DNA from: Acidobacteriota bacterium
GTDB lineage: Bacteria > Acidobacteriota > Terriglobia > Terriglobales > Acidobacteriaceae
Reading direction: 5' to 3'
DNA: 64,000 bases
NCBI GenBank assembly: GCA_021792795.1
Contig: JAJYUB010000002.1
Span: 62,001-126,000 of the forward strand
The notes under the pieces are model-generated. The model was not told the origin of the DNA, did no database searches, and saw nothing but the letters and a program-made list of their open reading frames with translations. The position numbers and the translations under genes are program-made. Shown here one piece after another: positions 4,139 through 18,041 of the stretch (positions are counted from its first letter, which is position 1; each line of letters opens with the position of its first letter).

Positions 4139-7100
4139 CTATTCGACGATCCGTACCGCGCCGGCCCCGACCAGTTCTTCAACGCGTTCGATGAAGTTCT
4201 TATCGGCGGCCACGCACAGGCCCGCGGGTTCCAGCACGACAAGATACTCATCCTTCTGCTCAAAGTCCAGCAGGACCTTCCCTGCTCCCGGAGTGGCCAG
4301 CATCATGGCGTGCATCTCGGTCAGCGCAGGCTCACTCACACGGTCCAACGCAATCCGAATGCGCATGCTGCTCGGCAACTTCAACTTCACGTCTTCCAAC
4401 GCTGTAATGTTGGATATGGCCAGCTTGGGGGCCGCATCTTCCTCGCCACGCAGCACGCCGCGCACCAGCACCGGCACATCGATCTTCAGATTTTCAGCCA
4501 TGCGCTTGTATGCTTCAGGAAAGCAGATCAGGTCGATCTTGCCTGTAAGGTCCTCCAGCGATCCCTGTGCATAGAGGTCGCCCTTGCGCGACTTGGCCAC
4601 GCGCACCCCGGTCAAGATCCCCGCGACTGAGATTTCATTTTCATCCTGCGCGTCGCGTCGCCCGGTGTTCGGCGCGGGCGTCATTTCCAATGCAGTCTGG
4701 GTATCGACCACGCCTTTTAGATTGCGCAATTTCTCGGCGTACTTCCCCAGCGGATGTCCGGAGACATAAAAACCAAGCACATCTTTTTCGTGTTGCAGGC
4801 GCTGCACCTCATCCCAATCGGGAATGTTCGGCAATTCATCTTGCTGCCGGGACCTGCCACCCGCGGGCGCGTCGTTGAACAACCCGAACAAGCCATGCTG
4901 TCCCGCGGCGGTATCGCGCTGCGCTTTCTGCGCGCGTTCAATGGCCTTATCGATGGCGGCCATCAACGCAGCGCGGGGCCCAAAGCAATCGAGCGCGCCG
5001 CTCTTGATCAGCGATTCCAAAACGCGCTTGTTCATCACGCGGAGATCGATGCGCTCGCAAAAACCCCAGAATGAACTGAACGTCTTGCCTTCCTGGACCA
5101 GCTCGCGACGAACTTGCAGGATGGAGGCAATCGCATTCTGCCCCACATTCTTTACACCGGCCAGGCCGAAGCGAATCGCCTCGCCATGCGGCGTGAAATC
5201 GGCATCGCTGGTGCGCACGTCGGGCGGCTCGACGGAAATACCCATCTCGCGGCACTCTTTGATGTACTTGACCACGTTGTCCGGCTTGCTGACTTCCGAG
5301 GTCAGCAGCGCGGCCATGAATTCCTTCGCATAATGCGTCTTCAAATATGCAGTGTGATACGCCAGCAGCGCATAGGCTGCGGAGTGCGACTTATTAAATC
5401 CATAGCCGGCGAAGCGCTCCATCAGCTCGAAAATGTGCTCGATCGTCTTTAGCGGAAATTTTTTATCGAGCGCGCCCTGCACAAACCGGTTCCGCTGCCG
5501 CGCCATTTCTGCCGGATCTTTCTTGCCCATGGCGCGGCGCAGCAGGTCGGCCTCGCCCAGCGAATAGCCGGCAAGCACGTTCGAAATCTGCATCACCTGT
5601 TCCTGGTAGACAATCACGCCGAGCGTTTCTTTCAGTATCGCTTCCAGTTCCGGCAGTTCGTACTCGACCTGTTTTCGTCCCCACTTGCGCTCGACAAAGT
5701 CATCGATCATCTGCATCGGCCCGGGGCGATACAGAGCATTCAACGCCGTCAGGTCGGCGACGGAATCCGGCTTATAGCGCCGTAGCACATCGCGCATCCC
5801 CGGGGACTCAAACTGAAACACGCCAGAGGTCAGGGCGCGATGAAAAACCTGCTCGTAGGTTTGCTTATCATCGAGCGGAATCGTTTCCATGTCGATCTCA
5901 ATACCAAGATTGACGCGAACCAGCCGCAGCGCCTCGTGAATTACAGTAAGGGCGGTCAGGCCAAGGAAATCCATCTTCAGCAGGCCAATTTTTTCAATGG
6001 CCTTCATGTCGTAAGCGGTAACAATTTCGCCGTTTTTGCCGCGACTTAATGGAACCAGATTCGTCAGCGGCTCAGGAGCAATCACCACGCCGGCGGCATG
6101 AATGCCCGCCCCGCGCGCCAACCCTTCCAGCCTGCGCGCAATGTCGATCAACTCGCGTACCTGCGGATCGTTCTCATATATCTGCTGTAGCGGCTCCGAT
6201 TCTTTCAGCGCCTCGTCGATCGTCATGCCGATGGTGGCCGGAATCAGTTTGGCAATTTTATCCACTTCGCCGTACGGCATGGCCAGCGCGCGACCCACAT
6301 CTTTAATGGACGCTTTCGCCGCCATGGTGTTGAATGTGATGATCTGCGCCACCTGCTCGCGCCCGTACTTGCGGGTCACGTAGTCGATCACTTCTCCGCG
6401 GCGGTTCATGCAGAAATCGATGTCGATGTCCGGCATCGACACGCGCTCGGGATTTAAAAAGCGTTCAAACAGAAGCTCGCTCTGCAGCGGATCGACGTCC
6501 GTGATGCCCATGGCGTAGGAGATCAGCGAACCGGTGGCTGAGCCGCGGCCTGGACCGACAGGAATGTCCTGTTCTTTCGCATAGCGGATGAAGTCCCAAA
6601 CGATCAGAAAATATCCGGAGAACTTCATCTGCTGGATGCAGGCGATTTCTCGTTCGAGACGCTGCTCATACTCGTCCGTGGTGTGGCGCAGGTGTCCACT
6701 ATCACGTAAGAATCGAATCGATGTATCCAGGCGGCGGCGAAATCCTTCTCGGCAAATCTTCGCGAAATAACTGTCGATGGTGAATTCCGGGGGCACATCG
6801 AACTGCGGAAACGAATTGGAGATTTTGTCGATCTTGACATTGCAGCGCTCGCCAAACTGCATGGTGCGGGCCACTACTTCCGGCGTTTGCGAGAAGACGC
6901 TCAACATTTCCTCGGCAGACTTGACGTAGAACTGGTCGCCGTCGAAACGGAAACGCTTCTCTTCGTGGATGGTGCTGCCGGTTTGCACGCACAGCAGAAC
7001 ATCGTGGGCATGATGGTCGTCGTGGCCGATGTAGTGGCTATCGTTGGTGGCGATCAGCGGGATGTCGAGTTCTTTTTCCAGGCGAAACAGATCGGCGTGG

Positions 7101-7654
7101 ATCTTTTTCTCCAGCTCCAGGCCCTGGTCCTGAATTTCCAAAAAGAAATTGCCGCGGCCAAAAATGTCTTCATACTGCTTGGCCGTCGAACGCGCACCGT
7201 CATAGTTGTTCTTCGTCAATTGCTCGCAAAGTTCTCCGGCGAGACAGCCGGAAAATCCGATCAGCCCTTTCGCGTGCTCCGCCAAAAATTTCTTGCCGAT
7301 GCGCGGCTTGCGATAGAAACCATGCAACGACGCTTCCGACGTGATGCGGACCAGGTTGCGATATCCCTCGTCGTTTTCCGCGATCACCAGCAAATGGTGG
7401 TATTGGTCGCCCTGCGGATCGGCGCGATGATCTTCCTTCTGGCAGATGTAAAGTTCGCAGCCTAAAATAGGATTGATATTGTATTTTTGTGCCGCATCGA
7501 AGAAATGGACCGCGCCATAAATGTTGCCGTGGTCTGTCATGGCAACGGCCTTCTGGCCCATGCCCTCGACATGCTTCAGCAGCTTGTCCACGTCGCAGGC
7601 GCCATCCAGCAGCGAGTAGTCCGTATGAAGATGGAGATGAGTGAATTCTGCCAT
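4139..7654 (-). CDS. dnaE: DNA polymerase III subunit alpha
   Basis: The 1171-residue replicative polymerase catalytic subunit. The start at 7654 is chosen because GGAGGT sits at the right distance upstream and the protein then begins MAEFTHLHLHTDYSLLDG, the usual PHP-domain start; an upstream in-frame ATG would add 22 unlikely residues. The palm motif PDIDIDF near residue 405 and KMDFLGL near residue 563 supply the three catalytic aspartates. GRGSATGSLISY, the helix-hairpin-helix segment GAGIHAAGV and GYGFNKSHSAAYALLAYHTA follow in order. An OB-fold domain starts near residue 1010. Length and order match DnaE1. No DnaQ-like exonuclease insertion is present, so this is not PolC. It is divergent from the MFS gene. 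Confidence 0.97.
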   Translation of the reverse strand: MAEFTHLHLHTDYSLLDGACDVDKLLKHVEGMGQKAVAMTDHGNIYGAVHFFDAAQKYNINPILGCELYICQKEDHRADPQGDQYHHLLVIAENDEGYRNLVRITSEASLHGFYRKPRIGKKFLAEHAKGLIGFSGCLAGELCEQLTKNNYDGARSTAKQYEDIFGRGNFFLEIQDQGLELEKKIHADLFRLEKELDIPLIATNDSHYIGHDDHHAHDVLLCVQTGSTIHEEKRFRFDGDQFYVKSAEEMLSVFSQTPEVVARTMQFGERCNVKIDKISNSFPQFDVPPEFTIDSYFAKICREGFRRRLDTSIRFLRDSGHLRHTTDEYEQRLEREIACIQQMKFSGYFLIVWDFIRYAKEQDIPVGPGRGSATGSLISYAMGITDVDPLQSELLFERFLNPERVSMPDIDIDFCMNRRGEVIDYVTRKYGREQVAQIITFNTMAAKASIKDVGRALAMPYGEVDKIAKLIPATIGMTIDEALKESEPLQQIYENDPQVRELIDIARRLEGLARGAGIHAAGVVIAPEPLTNLVPLSRGKNGEIVTAYDMKAIEKIGLLKMDFLGLTALTVIHEALRLVRVNLGIEIDMETIPLDDKQTYEQVFHRALTSGVFQFESPGMRDVLRRYKPDSVADLTALNALYRPGPMQMIDDFVERKWGRKQVEYELPELEAILKETLGVIVYQEQVMQISNVLAGYSLGEADLLRRAMGKKDPAEMARQRNRFVQGALDKKFPLKTIEHIFELMERFAGYGFNKSHSAAYALLAYHTAYLKTHYAKEFMAALLTSEVSKPDNVVKYIKECREMGISVEPPDVRTSDADFTPHGEAIRFGLAGVKNVGQNAIASILQVRRELVQEGKTFSSFWGFCERIDLRVMNKRVLESLIKSGALDCFGPRAALMAAIDKAIERAQKAQRDTAAGQHGLFGLFNDAPAGGRSRQQDELPNIPDWDEVQRLQHEKDVLGFYVSGHPLGKYAEKLRNLKGVVDTQTALEMTPAPNTGRRDAQDENEISVAGILTGVRVAKSRKGDLYAQGSLEDLTGKIDLICFPEAYKRMAENLKIDVPVLVRGVLRGEEDAAPKLAISNITALEDVKLKLPSSMRIRIALDRVSEPALTEMHAMMLATPGAGKVLLDFEQKDEYLVVLEPAGLCVAADKNFIERVEELVGAGAVRIVE

Positions 7655-14597: not shown

Positions 14598-15221
14598 ATG
14601 TCCAGACGTCTCCTGGTTGCGCTCAAATTCGTAGTGTTTCCAGCTTGCATGGTTCCGCTGGGAGTACTGGTCTACCAGGGATTCACCAACACGCTGGGCC
14701 CGGACCCGGTGGCTACCATTACCCACGCCACCGGATTCTGGACGCTCTACTTTCTGCTCATCTCGCTGGCCATCACACCGGTGCGCCGACTGAGCAGTCG
14801 CCTTGTCTGGCTCATTCGCTTTCGCCGCATGTTGGGGCTGTTTGCCTTCTTCTACGCCACGCTGCACCTGACGACCTATGTGTGGCTCTTTTCCGGCTTC
14901 GACGCGCATGAAATGGCGCATGACATCGGGAAGCGGCCCTTCATCACCATGGGGATGCTGGGATACGCCTGCCTGTTCGCGCTGGCCGCCACCTCCACCG
15001 CATGGTCGATTCGCAAACTGGGCGGCAGGCGCTGGACGATGCTGCATCGCCTGGCCTACGTTGCCGCCGCTGCCGGCGTCATCCACTACTGGTGGATTGT
15101 AAAAACCGGCGTCCGAACTCCCTGGAAGGTGACGGTGGTTCTTGCCGTGCTGCTGCTGGCGCGCGCGGTATGGTCGGCAAAAGAAACTCTGCGCAAACGA
15201 AAAGTCGCCGTCGCCGCTTAG
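14598..15221 (+). CDS. msrQ: Heme-binding membrane subunit MsrQ
   Basis: A 207-residue, six-helix cytochrome (YedZ family) that passes electrons from the quinone pool or flavin donors to MsrP. The segment LISLAITPVRRLSSRLVWL and the helices FAFFYATLHLTTYVWLF and MLHRLAYVAAAAGVIHYWW carry the expected heme-ligand histidines. It sits immediately downstream of msrP. Length fits the family. The end of this gene marks the left boundary of the AT-richer restriction island. Confidence 0.95.
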   Translation: MSRRLLVALKFVVFPACMVPLGVLVYQGFTNTLGPDPVATITHATGFWTLYFLLISLAITPVRRLSSRLVWLIRFRRMLGLFAFFYATLHLTTYVWLFSGFDAHEMAHDIGKRPFITMGMLGYACLFALAATSTAWSIRKLGGRRWTMLHRLAYVAAAAGVIHYWWIVKTGVRTPWKVTVVLAVLLLARAVWSAKETLRKRKVAVAA

Positions 15222-15253
15222 CTGTTTCTTCCTGAATGAAGTTTAAAAACAAT

Positions 15254-15549
15254 TCAGACCGTAGGTCTGATCCAATCTAAATTGCGCGCAACAAGCAGTT
15301 CGGTCATTTCCGCGTGGTGAGTGTTCTTCATGTTAACGACATACGTGTCGAAATTGTGCCATTTTGCAAGCGTTTCGACGCCAACTGCATTGTCGTACGT
15401 CATCAGAAAATCTCCTCTTAATGTCGCGGCAATGGCGAACAATGCCTCATGATCGAGCTCAGTGTGAGCGTAGAGGCGTTTGCCCGCTTTCTTGCCTGCC
15501 GCCGTATTTGTGTCGCGTTTCGTTAGCTGCGTAGCGGCCCAATCAATTC
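15254..15549 (-). pseudogene. C-terminal remnant of a D12-class N6-adenine DNA methyltransferase
   Basis: Reading on the minus strand gives TAAGKKAGKRLYAHTELDHEALF, split here for length as TAAGKKAGKRLY then AHTELDHEALF, followed by LRGDFLMTYDNAV and MKNTHHAEMTELLVARNLDW. These are the last ~90 residues of Dam/D12-type methylases. The catalytic DPPY motif normally lies just before TAAG, but here the residues are RDTN, and no S-adenosylmethionine-binding N-terminal part exists upstream; instead the preceding endonuclease gene ends at 15554. The remnant is in frame with that gene, after its TGA. It has no good start codon. It is read as a methylase that lost its N-terminal two-thirds by deletion. 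Confidence 0.75.
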
Positions 15550-15553
15550 GTCG

Positions 15554-16036
15554 TCAGCCGATACGGCTGGTATACTCTCTGCGAAATTCTTCGTAGATAA
15601 TTCGCAAGACCTTTTGCCGATCCTCCGTCTCATCAAAGTTCGCAGCCATCTTGAGTATCTCGCCTTTATTAATCGACTGGATCTTCATGTCGATGAGATA
15701 CTGCTTCACGGCCTTCGAGACGTCGTCTATGATAAGGATCACATTTCCGTCCTGCAATCGTTGCTCGTCGAAATTCATCTTCAGCTCCGCGTACACTTGT
15801 GCGGCCTCGACTTGCGTATGAATTCTCAGTTTCTTGACTTGGTAGACCACGCCAAAATTTGTGGAGAGGTCCACTCCCTTGTCGTGGGCAGATGTACGGG
15901 TGTCACGGTAGATCTTACAGGCGAATTTTTCCAAATGTGCCTTGATAACCGCAAAGCTAAAAATTTCAAAGTTCGCAGGAGTTTTGGCGATGTGCTCCTC
16001 AATCAATCTTACGAAACGCTCCCTTGACTCAGCCAT
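15554..16036 (-). CDS. Probable type II restriction endonuclease (HaeIII-like, tentative)
   Basis: A 160-residue soluble protein. The core KFACKIYRDTRTS, GVDLSTNFGVVYQVKKLRI and a following helix then strand VILIIDDVSK resemble a PD-(D/E)xK nuclease fold, with D in GVDLS and Q-x-K in YQVKK as candidate active-site residues. From memory the pattern recalls the HaeIII endonuclease family, but this is not certain. The start ATG follows directly after the TAG of the upstream gene and in the same frame. Codon use and base composition are AT-richer than the flanks, suggesting transfer. The adjacent methylase is only a fragment, so this enzyme lacks an obvious protecting partner in the window. Confidence 0.6.
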   Translation of the reverse strand: MAESRERFVRLIEEHIAKTPANFEIFSFAVIKAHLEKFACKIYRDTRTSAHDKGVDLSTNFGVVYQVKKLRIHTQVEAAQVYAELKMNFDEQRLQDGNVILIIDDVSKAVKQYLIDMKIQSINKGEILKMAANFDETEDRQKVLRIIYEEFRREYTSRIG

Positions 16037-16450
16037 CTAAGCACGTGTAGCCGATCCCTGCAAAAGGGGCACTATCCCTAAATGCTGATTGATGTGACGC
16101 TGGATTTGTCCAGGGATCCACTCGCACAACACATCTGCGTCGTCGGTGTAAGGAGGCAATAATCTATATTTAAGGTGTCCAACTTGCTCCAACACTCCGT
16201 AGCGAGACATACGTGAGCCATATGCATCGTAGTACTTTGCCCCAATATGCATATCGTGCCCGAGGAAATCCTTCATTAGTTTGACCGCCGTGCCGTACGC
16301 CTTCTGTAAATCTGAATCTGAAAATACTGCATTCTTTGTGGCGGAATATGTACGAACAAGGCCCAAAGTGACAAGAGGCGCTATCACCTTGGTCTGCGAA
16401 TTTCTCAGCATTCTCTCGATCTCTGTTTTGGAGGCTATCCCCGAATTCAT
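16037..16450 (-). CDS. Uncharacterised protein of the restriction island (winged-helix-like)
   Basis: A 137-residue protein not recognised as any named family. The first half (SKTEIERMLRNSQTKVIAPL, then LGLVRTYSATK) looks like a winged-helix DNA-binding unit; the middle SRMSRYGVLEQVGHLKYRLLP is compatible with a second small beta-helix unit. AAGG lies just before the ATG. It sits 9 bases after the NotI-like gene and abuts the next gene (TAG then ATG). All three are in one continuous frame, so this and the next gene could be the N- and C-terminal halves of one ~298-residue endonuclease split by an amber codon. A DNA-recognition role is inference. Confidence 0.6.
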   Translation of the reverse strand: MNSGIASKTEIERMLRNSQTKVIAPLVTLGLVRTYSATKNAVFSDSDLQKAYGTAVKLMKDFLGHDMHIGAKYYDAYGSRMSRYGVLEQVGHLKYRLLPPYTDDADVLCEWIPGQIQRHINQHLGIVPLLQGSATRA

Positions 16451-16459
16451 CTATGCCCT

Positions 16460-17341
16460 TCACACTACGACTTTCTCGAATTCAGACTCAAGCTGGGACA
16501 GCACTTCTTCCTCTGATAGATCCTGAAATAGTTCCGGCTCGTGAAAGTTATCTGGTCGGCAAGTATAGACCGTTCGGCCGTACTCCAAGTGGAGTTCCGC
16601 TTCAGTATTCCCCGATGGTTCCAAGCCATAAATCAGCCACGCAATTTCAGCTTGTTCCTTTGGAACTTCGGCGGGGATACGGAGGGTATCGAAAAAGCAT
16701 TGATCAATTGCAACAGCCGACTTTTTCCTCAATTTGTCCAGAATGCTCCCTTTGAAAATAAGCTGTGGAGCAAGTCGCTTGCGCGATGAAGACAAGTAAT
16801 CGGGCGCGGGATTTTTCTTTCGGCTGTGCTCCCAATCAACACTTAGATATTCCTCCCGATTTTGCATCAGAGGATTAAAAAATGCCCGGCGCAAATTTCC
16901 GCTGATATAAACCGTCTGTACTTCGAGTGACCCGAAGTCGGTAACTGTGCCGCTCTCGTCATAAGCTACAAGCACAACATCGATATTTCCAGCAGATTTT
17001 CCGTTCTTATCTTTCAGTCGTACCTCAACAAGTGTGGTCCATTGTGTTCCCACTGGAAAAAAGAATTCTGCGGCCTGGTCGGCGATAATCCATTCCTGAC
17101 GAAGACGCACGGGACAAATAACGGCCAGATTGTTGCCATGATTGATGCTGCAAACTCCAAGCGGATCTATGACGCTATCTTTCGTGCAATTGGGAACTTT
17201 GTTGTTGTATGGACATAGCCGATTCCGACGATACCTCTGTGCCTCCTCAGTGTTGCTGCCAGGAGGGAAACCAAAAAGTTCAGCAATGGGCTGTATCGAC
17301 ACTTTATTCAACCTCGCTAATGGCATCGTACGTCGTTTCAT
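16460..17341 (-). CDS. NotI-family type II restriction endonuclease
   Basis: A 293-residue protein matching the NotI family, whose founding member cuts GCGGCCGC and holds an iron atom on four cysteines. Four cysteines with NotI-like spacing occur at residues 43, 52, 64 and 76 (RLCPYNNKVPNCTKD, PLGVCSI, VICPVRLRQEW). The active-site segment is GSLEVQTVYISGN, where Glu and Gln correspond to the catalytic LEIQ of NotI, with an upstream Asp in NIDVVLVAYD. It is shorter than NotI. The start is uncertain: 17341 or 17326, either way overlapping the end of rnhB. Base composition is AT-richer than the neighbours. No intact methylase is present beside it. Specificity is unknown. Confidence 0.8.
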   Translation of the reverse strand: MKRRTMPLARLNKVSIQPIAELFGFPPGSNTEEAQRYRRNRLCPYNNKVPNCTKDSVIDPLGVCSINHGNNLAVICPVRLRQEWIIADQAAEFFFPVGTQWTTLVEVRLKDKNGKSAGNIDVVLVAYDESGTVTDFGSLEVQTVYISGNLRRAFFNPLMQNREEYLSVDWEHSRKKNPAPDYLSSSRKRLAPQLIFKGSILDKLRKKSAVAIDQCFFDTLRIPAEVPKEQAEIAWLIYGLEPSGNTEAELHLEYGRTVYTCRPDNFHEPELFQDLSEEEVLSQLESEFEKVVV

Positions 17342-18041
17342 TCACACCGCGCAGTTCGATCACTCTTCGCACCGGCTCGAATGTGGTCCGGTGCAGCGGA
17401 CATGGGCCATGTTCGGCCAGCGCGCGCAAATGTTCCTCGGTGCCATACCCCTTGTGCGAGGCCAGACCGTACTGCGGATATTCCTCGTGGTAGCGGCACA
17501 TCCACGCGTCGCGATAGACCTTCGCGACAATCGACGCGGCAGCAATGGAGATGCTGATGGAGTCTCCATGGATGATCGCCTGCTGCCTGCACGGCGTGTC
17601 CAGCCGCTCGGCGTCGATCAACAGAAAATCCGGCTGCGGAATCAGTTGCGCGATGGCCGCCAGCATGGCCTGGTGCGAAGCGCGCCGGACATTGATGGCA
17701 TCGATGGTGGCCGCATCCGCAAACCCAATGGCTACCGCGATCGCTCGACTGCGGATAATGACGTCCAGGCGCTCGCGTTCCTCCGGCAACAACTGCTTGG
17801 AGTCGCGCGCGCCGCGAATGCGCGTTTTCTCTGGAAGAATCACCGCCGCCGCAACCACCGGCCCGAACAAGGCTCCCCGGCCAACTTCATCCACGCCGGC
17901 GATCGCCGTAGCTCCCAGTTGCCGCGCCGCCCGTTCGTGCTTCCCGCCACAGACCAGCGCGCGCAGGTAGCGCATCTTCTCCGCTTGCTTCGATTGCGGC
18001 GTCTCCGGTCCAGCGGAGCGGGTCTGACTTTTCACTGGCAT
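17304..18041 (-). CDS. rnhB: Ribonuclease HII
   Basis: A 245-residue enzyme that removes misincorporated ribonucleotides and RNA from RNA-DNA hybrids. AIAGVDEVGRGALFGPVVAAAV supplies the diagnostic DE pair (quoted here as AGVDEVGRG), followed by DSKQLLPEERE, LLIDAERLD, SISIAAASIVAKVYRD and HKGYGTEEHL, all in the family order. The N-terminus has ~45 extra residues and the C-terminus ~20 beyond the usual end. Its tail overlaps the NotI-like gene start. It is separated from the upstream rplS gene by a terminator, so it probably has its own promoter in 18042-18277. Confidence 0.95.
   Translation of the reverse strand: MPVKSQTRSAGPETPQSKQAEKMRYLRALVCGGKHERAARQLGATAIAGVDEVGRGALFGPVVAAAVILPEKTRIRGARDSKQLLPEERERLDVIIRSRAIAVAIGFADAATIDAINVRRASHQAMLAAIAQLIPQPDFLLIDAERLDTPCRQQAIIHGDSISISIAAASIVAKVYRDAWMCRYHEEYPQYGLASHKGYGTEEHLRALAEHGPCPLHRTTFEPVRRVIELRGVNETTYDAISEVE

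Follow-up and report, generated by a model that had tools for sequence, protein, structure and literature searches.

A broken NotI-family restriction-modification locus of an acidobacterium and a putative nuclease gene that may recurrently enter such loci

Restriction-modification (R-M) systems resist loss, as a cell that loses its methylase first is killed. In the type II R-M systems that come closest to the locus described here, a gene for a NotI-family restriction endonuclease is directly followed by an intact gene for a D12 adenine methylase, as found in loci L017, L018 and L021 and on a plasmid of Thermus brockianus (L009). Here, we analysed a stretch of 64,000 nucleotides (the window) from contig JAJYUB010000002.1 of an Acidobacteriota bacterium (GCA_021792795.1), in which an island at positions 15254-17341 on the minus strand occupies the gap between msrQ and rnhB. 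With the NotI-D12 systems of L017 and L009 the island shares its NotI motifs and a downstream position of the D12 sequence; however, while D12 is whole in these systems, it is reduced to a remnant in the window, where a further gene absent from them lies in between. We refer to the product of this gene, a predicted 298-residue restriction-type nuclease (HaeII/EcoT38I-like), as H298. On balance, we lean towards the view that H298 recurrently invades R-M loci and that the locus in the window is dead, and regard the island not as a live restriction system working without a methylase, but as an R-M locus that is both broken and recombinant.

An earlier note on this DNA had described a NotI-like endonuclease, two more genes and a D12 fragment devoid of the DPPY motif, and had left three ways out of the expected lethality: inactive nucleases, protection from elsewhere or a changed specificity. 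The fragment was recovered as described. It matches residues 212-291 of the intact 300-amino-acid D12 enzyme of L017 with 74% identity (tblastn); DPPY is located at residues 208-211 of that enzyme, and both the N-terminal S-adenosylmethionine-binding part and DPPY are absent from the remnant, which has no Pfam match. When the window's genome (98.2% complete) was searched with an intact D12 relative, only the remnant was found, and the PF02086 profile found nothing; we thus rejected the idea that the genome conceals a second D12 methylase. A type II R-M system requires a complete cognate methylase, and the whole genome offers only the D12 remnant in this role, which agrees with the claim that the restriction genes lack a working partner. 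The earlier note had named a complete cognate methylase elsewhere as the result that would overturn it, and for D12 no such gene turned up. The genome does hold eight C5 methylase matches (PF00145), which we take to be non-cognate to the window NotI because close NotI relatives pair with D12 enzymes. Active enzymes in a host protected from elsewhere, e.g. by a C5 methylase or by a lack of sites, appear very improbable to us: the C5 genes, together with the plasmid-borne NotI relatives of L010, L011 and L013, which are paired with annotated C5 methylases, speak for such protection, but the nearer NotI relatives (L017, L018, L021, L009) pair with D12, no other D12 was found in the genome and H298 is split.

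Across related loci, damage to D12 coincides with the presence of H298. The methylase was whole in all eight D12-paired NotI loci without H298 that were opened, compared to none of 13 loci with H298 (Fisher 4.9e-6 under the assumption of independent loci, which holds only partly). The count of eight omits the plasmid loci L010, L011 and L013 with their C5 neighbours as well as nine of 14 plasmid matches that were not opened, and one of the eight, L024, does not contain the literal letters DPPY. The 13 loci comprise the window, L025, L026, L028, L029, L036, L037, L040, L046, L047, L048, L058 and L019 together with L020, two contigs of genome G291 that were read as a single locus. Close behind the H298 stop codon, the D12 remnants of these loci start at residue 25 (L046), 134 (L040), 135 (L028), 212 (window and L025), 228 (L048), 236 (L047), 243 (L037), 247 (L020) or 255 (L026), numbered by the best of five D12 queries; a finer comparison revealed a few frameshifted residues ahead of some of these starts, e.g. 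in L026 and L040. L058 retains a trace of D12, L029 and L036 retain none. Outside the NotI set, D12 starts at residue 188 in L056 and 184 in L033.

The NotI gene in the window could be assigned with a score far above the profile cut-off (Table 1), and the stretch 15272-17342 recurs in L025 with 89.5% identity in different surroundings (of the window region compared, L025 shares the island alone); for these two reasons the island is no chance arrangement. In a 15-row alignment, C43, C52, C64, C76, E140 and Q142 are invariant and D121 is nearly so. We take D121, E140 and Q142 together with the four cysteines to be the catalytic and metal residues of NotI. The four cysteines and the LEVQ site noted earlier are hence in place, and the loss of active-site residues, which the earlier note had likewise named as evidence against itself, is not seen in the window NotI. 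It is seen in two relatives beside H298, namely a change from NID to NIG in the NotI-like protein of L036 (4727-5566) and from LEVQ to LEIL in that of L040 (3557-4351). The window protein aligns weakly to 3bvq; neither a PDB sequence search with NotI alone nor a first viral scan with the NotI query returned anything useful.

The locus is, as judged from sequence comparison, a mosaic, in which an L017-like system is the nearest match for residues 1-185 of NotI and for the D12 remnant, and H298-bearing loci are nearest to the 3' third of NotI and to H298. Identity of the window NotI to that of L017 drops from 79% (residues 1-90) and 75% (91-185) to 60% (186-240) and 17% (241-293), compared to 51, 57, 65 and 36% for the H298-bearing L029 in the same segments. 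Informative sites favour L017 over L029 by 45:7 before residue 186 and by 5:17 after it (Fisher 2e-7), and the best breakpoint, at residue 195, was not equalled in any of 2000 permutations. Other H298-bearing references gave p values of 0.00015 (L036), 0.0004 (L026) and 0.0013 (L037) compared to 0.096 (L018) and 0.17 (L009) for references free of H298, a pattern that an H298-carrying donor would be expected to leave. Between the window and L025, synonymous divergence (dS) amounts to 1.17 for NotI 1-185, 0.086 for NotI 186-293, 0.18 for H298 and 1.24 for the D12 remnant.

The two additional genes of the earlier note turned out to be one. Both frames (Table 1) lie in the same reading frame, which is split by a TAG at 16037-16039 and continues with ATG; GCT TAG ATG in the window corresponds to GCT GAG CTG in L025, the closest copy, with a single frame of 298 codons, and most other relatives also have one frame of about 298 amino acids. 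The amber codon falls between the two domains of the protein. A scan of genome contigs from 84,980 species yielded 35 H298 loci, the titles of which name Acidobacteria, Verrucomicrobia, Nitrospira, Bacteroidetes, Planctomycetes, a cyanobacterium, an archaeal bin and others. Near home the gene is rare: the window's own genome is the only carrier among 399 of its class, and the C-terminal half was found in two of 297 genomes of the phylum. On phages or plasmids H298 was not found in the collections scanned, one of the scans employing two peptide patterns only. In the alignment of 29 of the 35 loci (L027, L035, L039, L051, L054 and L056, broken or partial, were left out here and in the H298 tree), D194, Q204, K206 and other residues, catalytic-type positions among them, are invariant, in a D...QxK arrangement that, as we assume, resembles MspJI- and Mrr-like sites. 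All 29 proteins match the Pfam family RE_HaeII (PF09554), albeit over only about 42 positions (L025) and with scores on both sides of the cut-off of 25, e.g. 25.9 for the C-terminal half in the window and 24.8 for the intact L025 protein.

Structure prediction for the L025 protein (mean predicted local distance difference test score 82.5, with a weak loop at 186-200) gave EcoT38I as best full-length fold match (Z 11.8, root-mean-square deviation (rmsd) 6.8, 261 residues aligned). Residues 1-121 resembled the winged helices of CDC6/ORC (Z 11.5) and, at a lower score, the sulfur-binding (phosphorothioate-DNA-binding) domain of SprMcrA (Z 8.9). EcoT38I again came first when the C-terminal half was modelled alone (Z 8.8, rmsd 3.9, 141 aligned), followed by AF1548, AspBHI, LlaBIII and MspJI among the rows at Z 5.9-7.2, a range that the tool describes as common. 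Foldseek ranked MspJI and AspBHI on top with E values above 0.05, and found no match at E 0.001 for either H298 model; a PDB sequence search with the H298 profile gave nothing useful. A PD-(D/E)XK restriction-type nuclease is a reasonable reading of these models.

Does the damage in the window reflect a more general behaviour of H298? A homology search of the flanks showed that NotI, D12 or N6_N4 genes or pieces of them border H298 in 26 of the 35 loci, a raw, uncontrolled count. Most of these neighbours are truncated, most lie no farther than about 100 bases from H298, and most share its strand. A truncated NotI gene lies upstream on the same strand in L027, L032, L034, L041 and L042 (with weak traces, E 0.002, in L034 and L042), an N6_N4 methylase gene is cut short ahead of H298 in L044, L045, L052, L053 and L054, and D12 likewise in L055, where H298 is located between a D12 fragment from the N-terminus and a gene of HaeIII type, the frame of which is without the first 74 profile positions (4991-7540). 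A Pfam scan of ten open reading frames, mostly neighbours at loci without any R-M trace, returned unrelated families, no match, H298 itself (L039) and the HaeIII-type gene (L055). Two further genes accompany H298. One of about 100 amino acids without Pfam match is conserved beside it, mostly on the opposite strand, in L027, L030-L035, L038, L041 and L042; the other, of about 108 amino acids and without a convincing Pfam match, is conserved directly downstream on the same strand in L044, L045, L050, L051 and L053.

The window lineage also bears signs of decay. Compared to L025, NotI 186-293 has ten nonsynonymous and six synonymous changes (10N:6S), which differs from H298 (10N:31S, Fisher 0.012) and from NotI 1-185 (34N:75S, Fisher 0.023); the ratios of nonsynonymous to synonymous substitution rates (dN/dS) of the latter two are 0.08 and 0.07, respectively. 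By the majority of relatives, eight of the sense changes in H298 arose in the window and two in L025, and two changes of the window NotI, G199S and P221R, fall on sites that are the same in most relatives. Although the numbers are small and the breakpoints were chosen after inspection of the data, this pattern fits decay in the window lineage. Activity or expression of the window NotI has probably been lost, and the apparent lethality would thereby be resolved; H298 itself is decaying, so that the paradox probably reflects a dead system. Among the three options of the earlier note, inactive nucleases appear best supported by the split H298 and the 10N:6S of the NotI 3' third; the recombinant nature of the locus and the link between D12 loss and H298 had been missed. 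We also considered a functional defence unit made up of the two nucleases NotI and H298, which would do without a methylase and keep D12 as a relic, and regard this as quite unlikely. Such a unit would be in line with the low dN/dS of H298 and NotI 1-185, with the intact NotI beside H298 in the window and eight further loci and with the little or no D12 left in L029, L036 and L058. But, many H298 loci have no NotI, the NotI gene is broken or altered in L019, L028 (frameshifted), L036 and L040, the window H298 is split next to a relaxed NotI 3' third, and the constraint on NotI 1-185 dates from a time when D12 was still present in its lineage.

The following scenario would account for these observations. 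A NotI-D12 type II R-M system would have been entered by the solitary nuclease gene H298 through recombination. H298 would recurrently land in R-M loci, where it would usually follow a restriction or methylase gene on the same strand and replace parts of its neighbours. In our view the likeliest route is homing-like: H298 would cut an R-M locus free of H298 and the break would be copied from an H298-bearing allele, with the NotI flank carried along; the invaded allele, having lost the 5' portion of D12, would then be immune. Taken by itself, this homing step is tentative and passive turnover is about as likely. Still more doubtful is the far-reaching version, in which H298 is a free-standing homing endonuclease derived from a restriction enzyme that targets R-M genes across phyla, deletes part of the gene it cuts, leaves its own allele immune, dismantles the R-M system of its host and spreads through defence islands without a phage or plasmid vehicle seen so far.

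Several observations weigh against recurrent invasion and a dead locus. H298 truncates its neighbours, unlike the intergenic homing genes of T4. No R-M trace was found in the flanks of nine of the 35 loci (L030, L031, L038, L039, L043, L049, L050, L057, L059), and the adjoining D12 gene is near complete, on the opposite strand, in L032 and L041. PF02086 matches, of whatever specificity, in 25 of the 36 H298 genomes, 23 of them over the cut-off, indicate that H298 can in general coexist with adenine methylation; the L047 genome encodes, elsewhere than at its H298 locus, a D12 enzyme 45% identical to that of L017, and some H298 hosts may still be protected. Open frames and intact motifs were seen for the NotI genes beside H298 in the window, L025, L026, L029, L037, L046, L047, L048 and L058, and several NotI genes beside H298 thus appear intact, a poor fit with an enzyme that is dead everywhere. 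The 10N:6S contrast depends on few sites, and the D12 remnant, despite its missing catalytic part, has a dN/dS of 0.078 over 85 codons (15266-15505 compared to 5275-5517 of L025), which could mean a live small protein or a constraint that predates truncation. Finally, the trees, both weakly resolved, do not require H298 to have arisen beside NotI more than once: in the NotI tree (17 rows) presence of H298 requires three changes, with the starred branches compatible with a single origin, and in the H298 tree association with NotI requires five changes, of which at least three are forced.

Two other explanations draw on the same loci. Ordinary turnover of defence islands, in which homologous recombination via NotI, together with illegitimate joining at hotspots of R-M genes, shuffles H298 without targeted mobility while R-M genes decay around it, is possible, if rather unlikely. 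The nine trace-free loci and the gap between msrQ and rnhB, which looks like a hotspot (see below), fit this explanation, and NotI homology suffices for the exchange of the left flank. It does not readily explain why H298 is bordered by fragments from several unrelated R-M families (two NotI subgroups, D12, N6_N4), and plain decay would be expected to produce 5' and 3' remainders of D12 with equal frequency. A second explanation, which we consider unlikely, assumes an epigenetic conflict: H298 would be modification-dependent and survive only beside a broken methylase, by selection instead of targeting. Most H298 loci have no whole methylase alongside, the fold comparison lists the modification-dependent enzymes MspJI and AspBHI at intermediate scores, and killing of cells by a methyl-specific nuclease upon arrival of a methylase gene is described in excerpts of PMC2614495. 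The PF02086 matches in H298 genomes and the near-complete D12 genes of L032 and L041 argue against such a conflict, as does the best fold match, EcoT38I, which is a type II enzyme; moreover, retention of NotI without a methylase would be left unexplained.

The features of the locus are compiled in Table 1. As previously noted, the block between msrQ and rnhB is AT-richer, with a GC content of 47-49% compared to about 58-60% in the flanks. In genome G626 of the same genus (locus L071), the corresponding gap of 1,903 bp contains different R-M-like genes, which, named by sequence reading and not by profile search, encode a helix-turn-helix protein, a 197-amino-acid protein and, on the opposite strand, a 250-amino-acid DPPF methylase; in L074, L078 and L085 the gap spans just 84-182 bp. 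This spot (gap 15222-17347 in the window) seems to take up R-M genes repeatedly and may be an insertion hotspot. The 3' end of rnhB (17304-17347) forms the edge of the island: the alignment with G626 ends at 17347 and identity with L025 begins at 17342, and the last rnhB codons seem to be island sequence.

Table 1 Features of the island and its flanks in the window.
Feature	Position	Strand	Evidence
msrQ, left flank	14598-15221	+	NF003831
D12 adenine methylase remnant (L017 enzyme residues 212-291, without DPPY)	15254-15505	-	tblastn 74%; PADLOC MTase_II 0.0014 and PD-Lambda-5_B 9.1e-05, both weak
48-base spacer, H298 stop to D12 homology	15506-15553	-	D12 matches weak, conflicting
H298 C-terminal half, predicted PD-(D/E)XK-type nuclease domain, ATG directly after stop	15554-16036	-	RE_HaeII 25.9 bits (cut-off 25); fold
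H298 N-terminal half, predicted winged-helix domain, ended by TAG 16037-16039	16037-16450	-	same frame as C-terminal half; uninterrupted in L025; fold
NotI-family restriction endonuclease gene, 293 amino acids, chimeric	16460-17341	-	PF12183, 1.5e-52, 178.8 bits (cut-off 22); mosaic, break near residue 186-195
NotI residues 186-293, portion that probably arrived with H298	16460-16786	-	dS 0.086 to L025 compared to 1.17 upstream; informative sites 5:17 for L029 over L017
rnhB, right flank, 3' end overlaps island edge	17304-18041	-	NF000594; L025 identity from 17342

The more interesting object is thus H298, a restriction-type nuclease gene that lies against wrecked R-M genes in many phyla. A nuclease gene repeatedly found where a methylase or restriction gene has been cut away would provide a natural set of survivors of a loss that R-M systems normally resist, and points to a way in which a restriction enzyme could turn into a mobile gene of its own. 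As both empty (L017, L018, L009) and occupied (L025, L026, L029) alleles are at hand, the question is open to experiment with laboratory constructs. Should H298 only be drifting through defence islands, however, the window would contain an instructive but ordinary ruin.

Judged by titles and abstract openings, no paper brought up by our searches of the open-access literature deals with H298 or with a restriction-type nuclease gene that invades methylase genes. Among known enzymes, H298 is like the HaeII family (PF09554) by the profile matches given above, and is unlike it in that the match covers so few positions near the cut-off and in that a methylase belonging to H298 is mostly missing from its vicinity; over the full length, EcoT38I gave the best fold match, yet at an rmsd of 6.8. 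With nucleases of the MspJI/AspBHI and McrBC types, and with the conflict between PcaRCI and PcaRCII, H298 shares the occurrence of a lone nuclease alongside an R-M system within the same genome and a possible conflict between the two. Excerpts of PMC8989522 describe an R-M system that silences a nuclease by promoter methylation; in contrast to PcaRCI and PcaRCII, H298 is encoded within R-M loci that are themselves wrecked, and any modification dependence of H298 is putative. The free-standing homing endonucleases of T4-like phages are, as outlined in excerpts of PMC2988022, naked nuclease genes present in some alleles only, with co-conversion of the flanks. Similarly, NotI-D12 loci exist with and without H298, and the NotI mosaic corresponds to flank co-conversion, although it is also compatible with plain recombination. 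While the T4-like genes, according to the same excerpts, belong to the GIY-YIG and HNH families and reside between intact phage genes, H298 is a putative cutter on bacterial chromosomes, with truncated neighbours at many of its loci.

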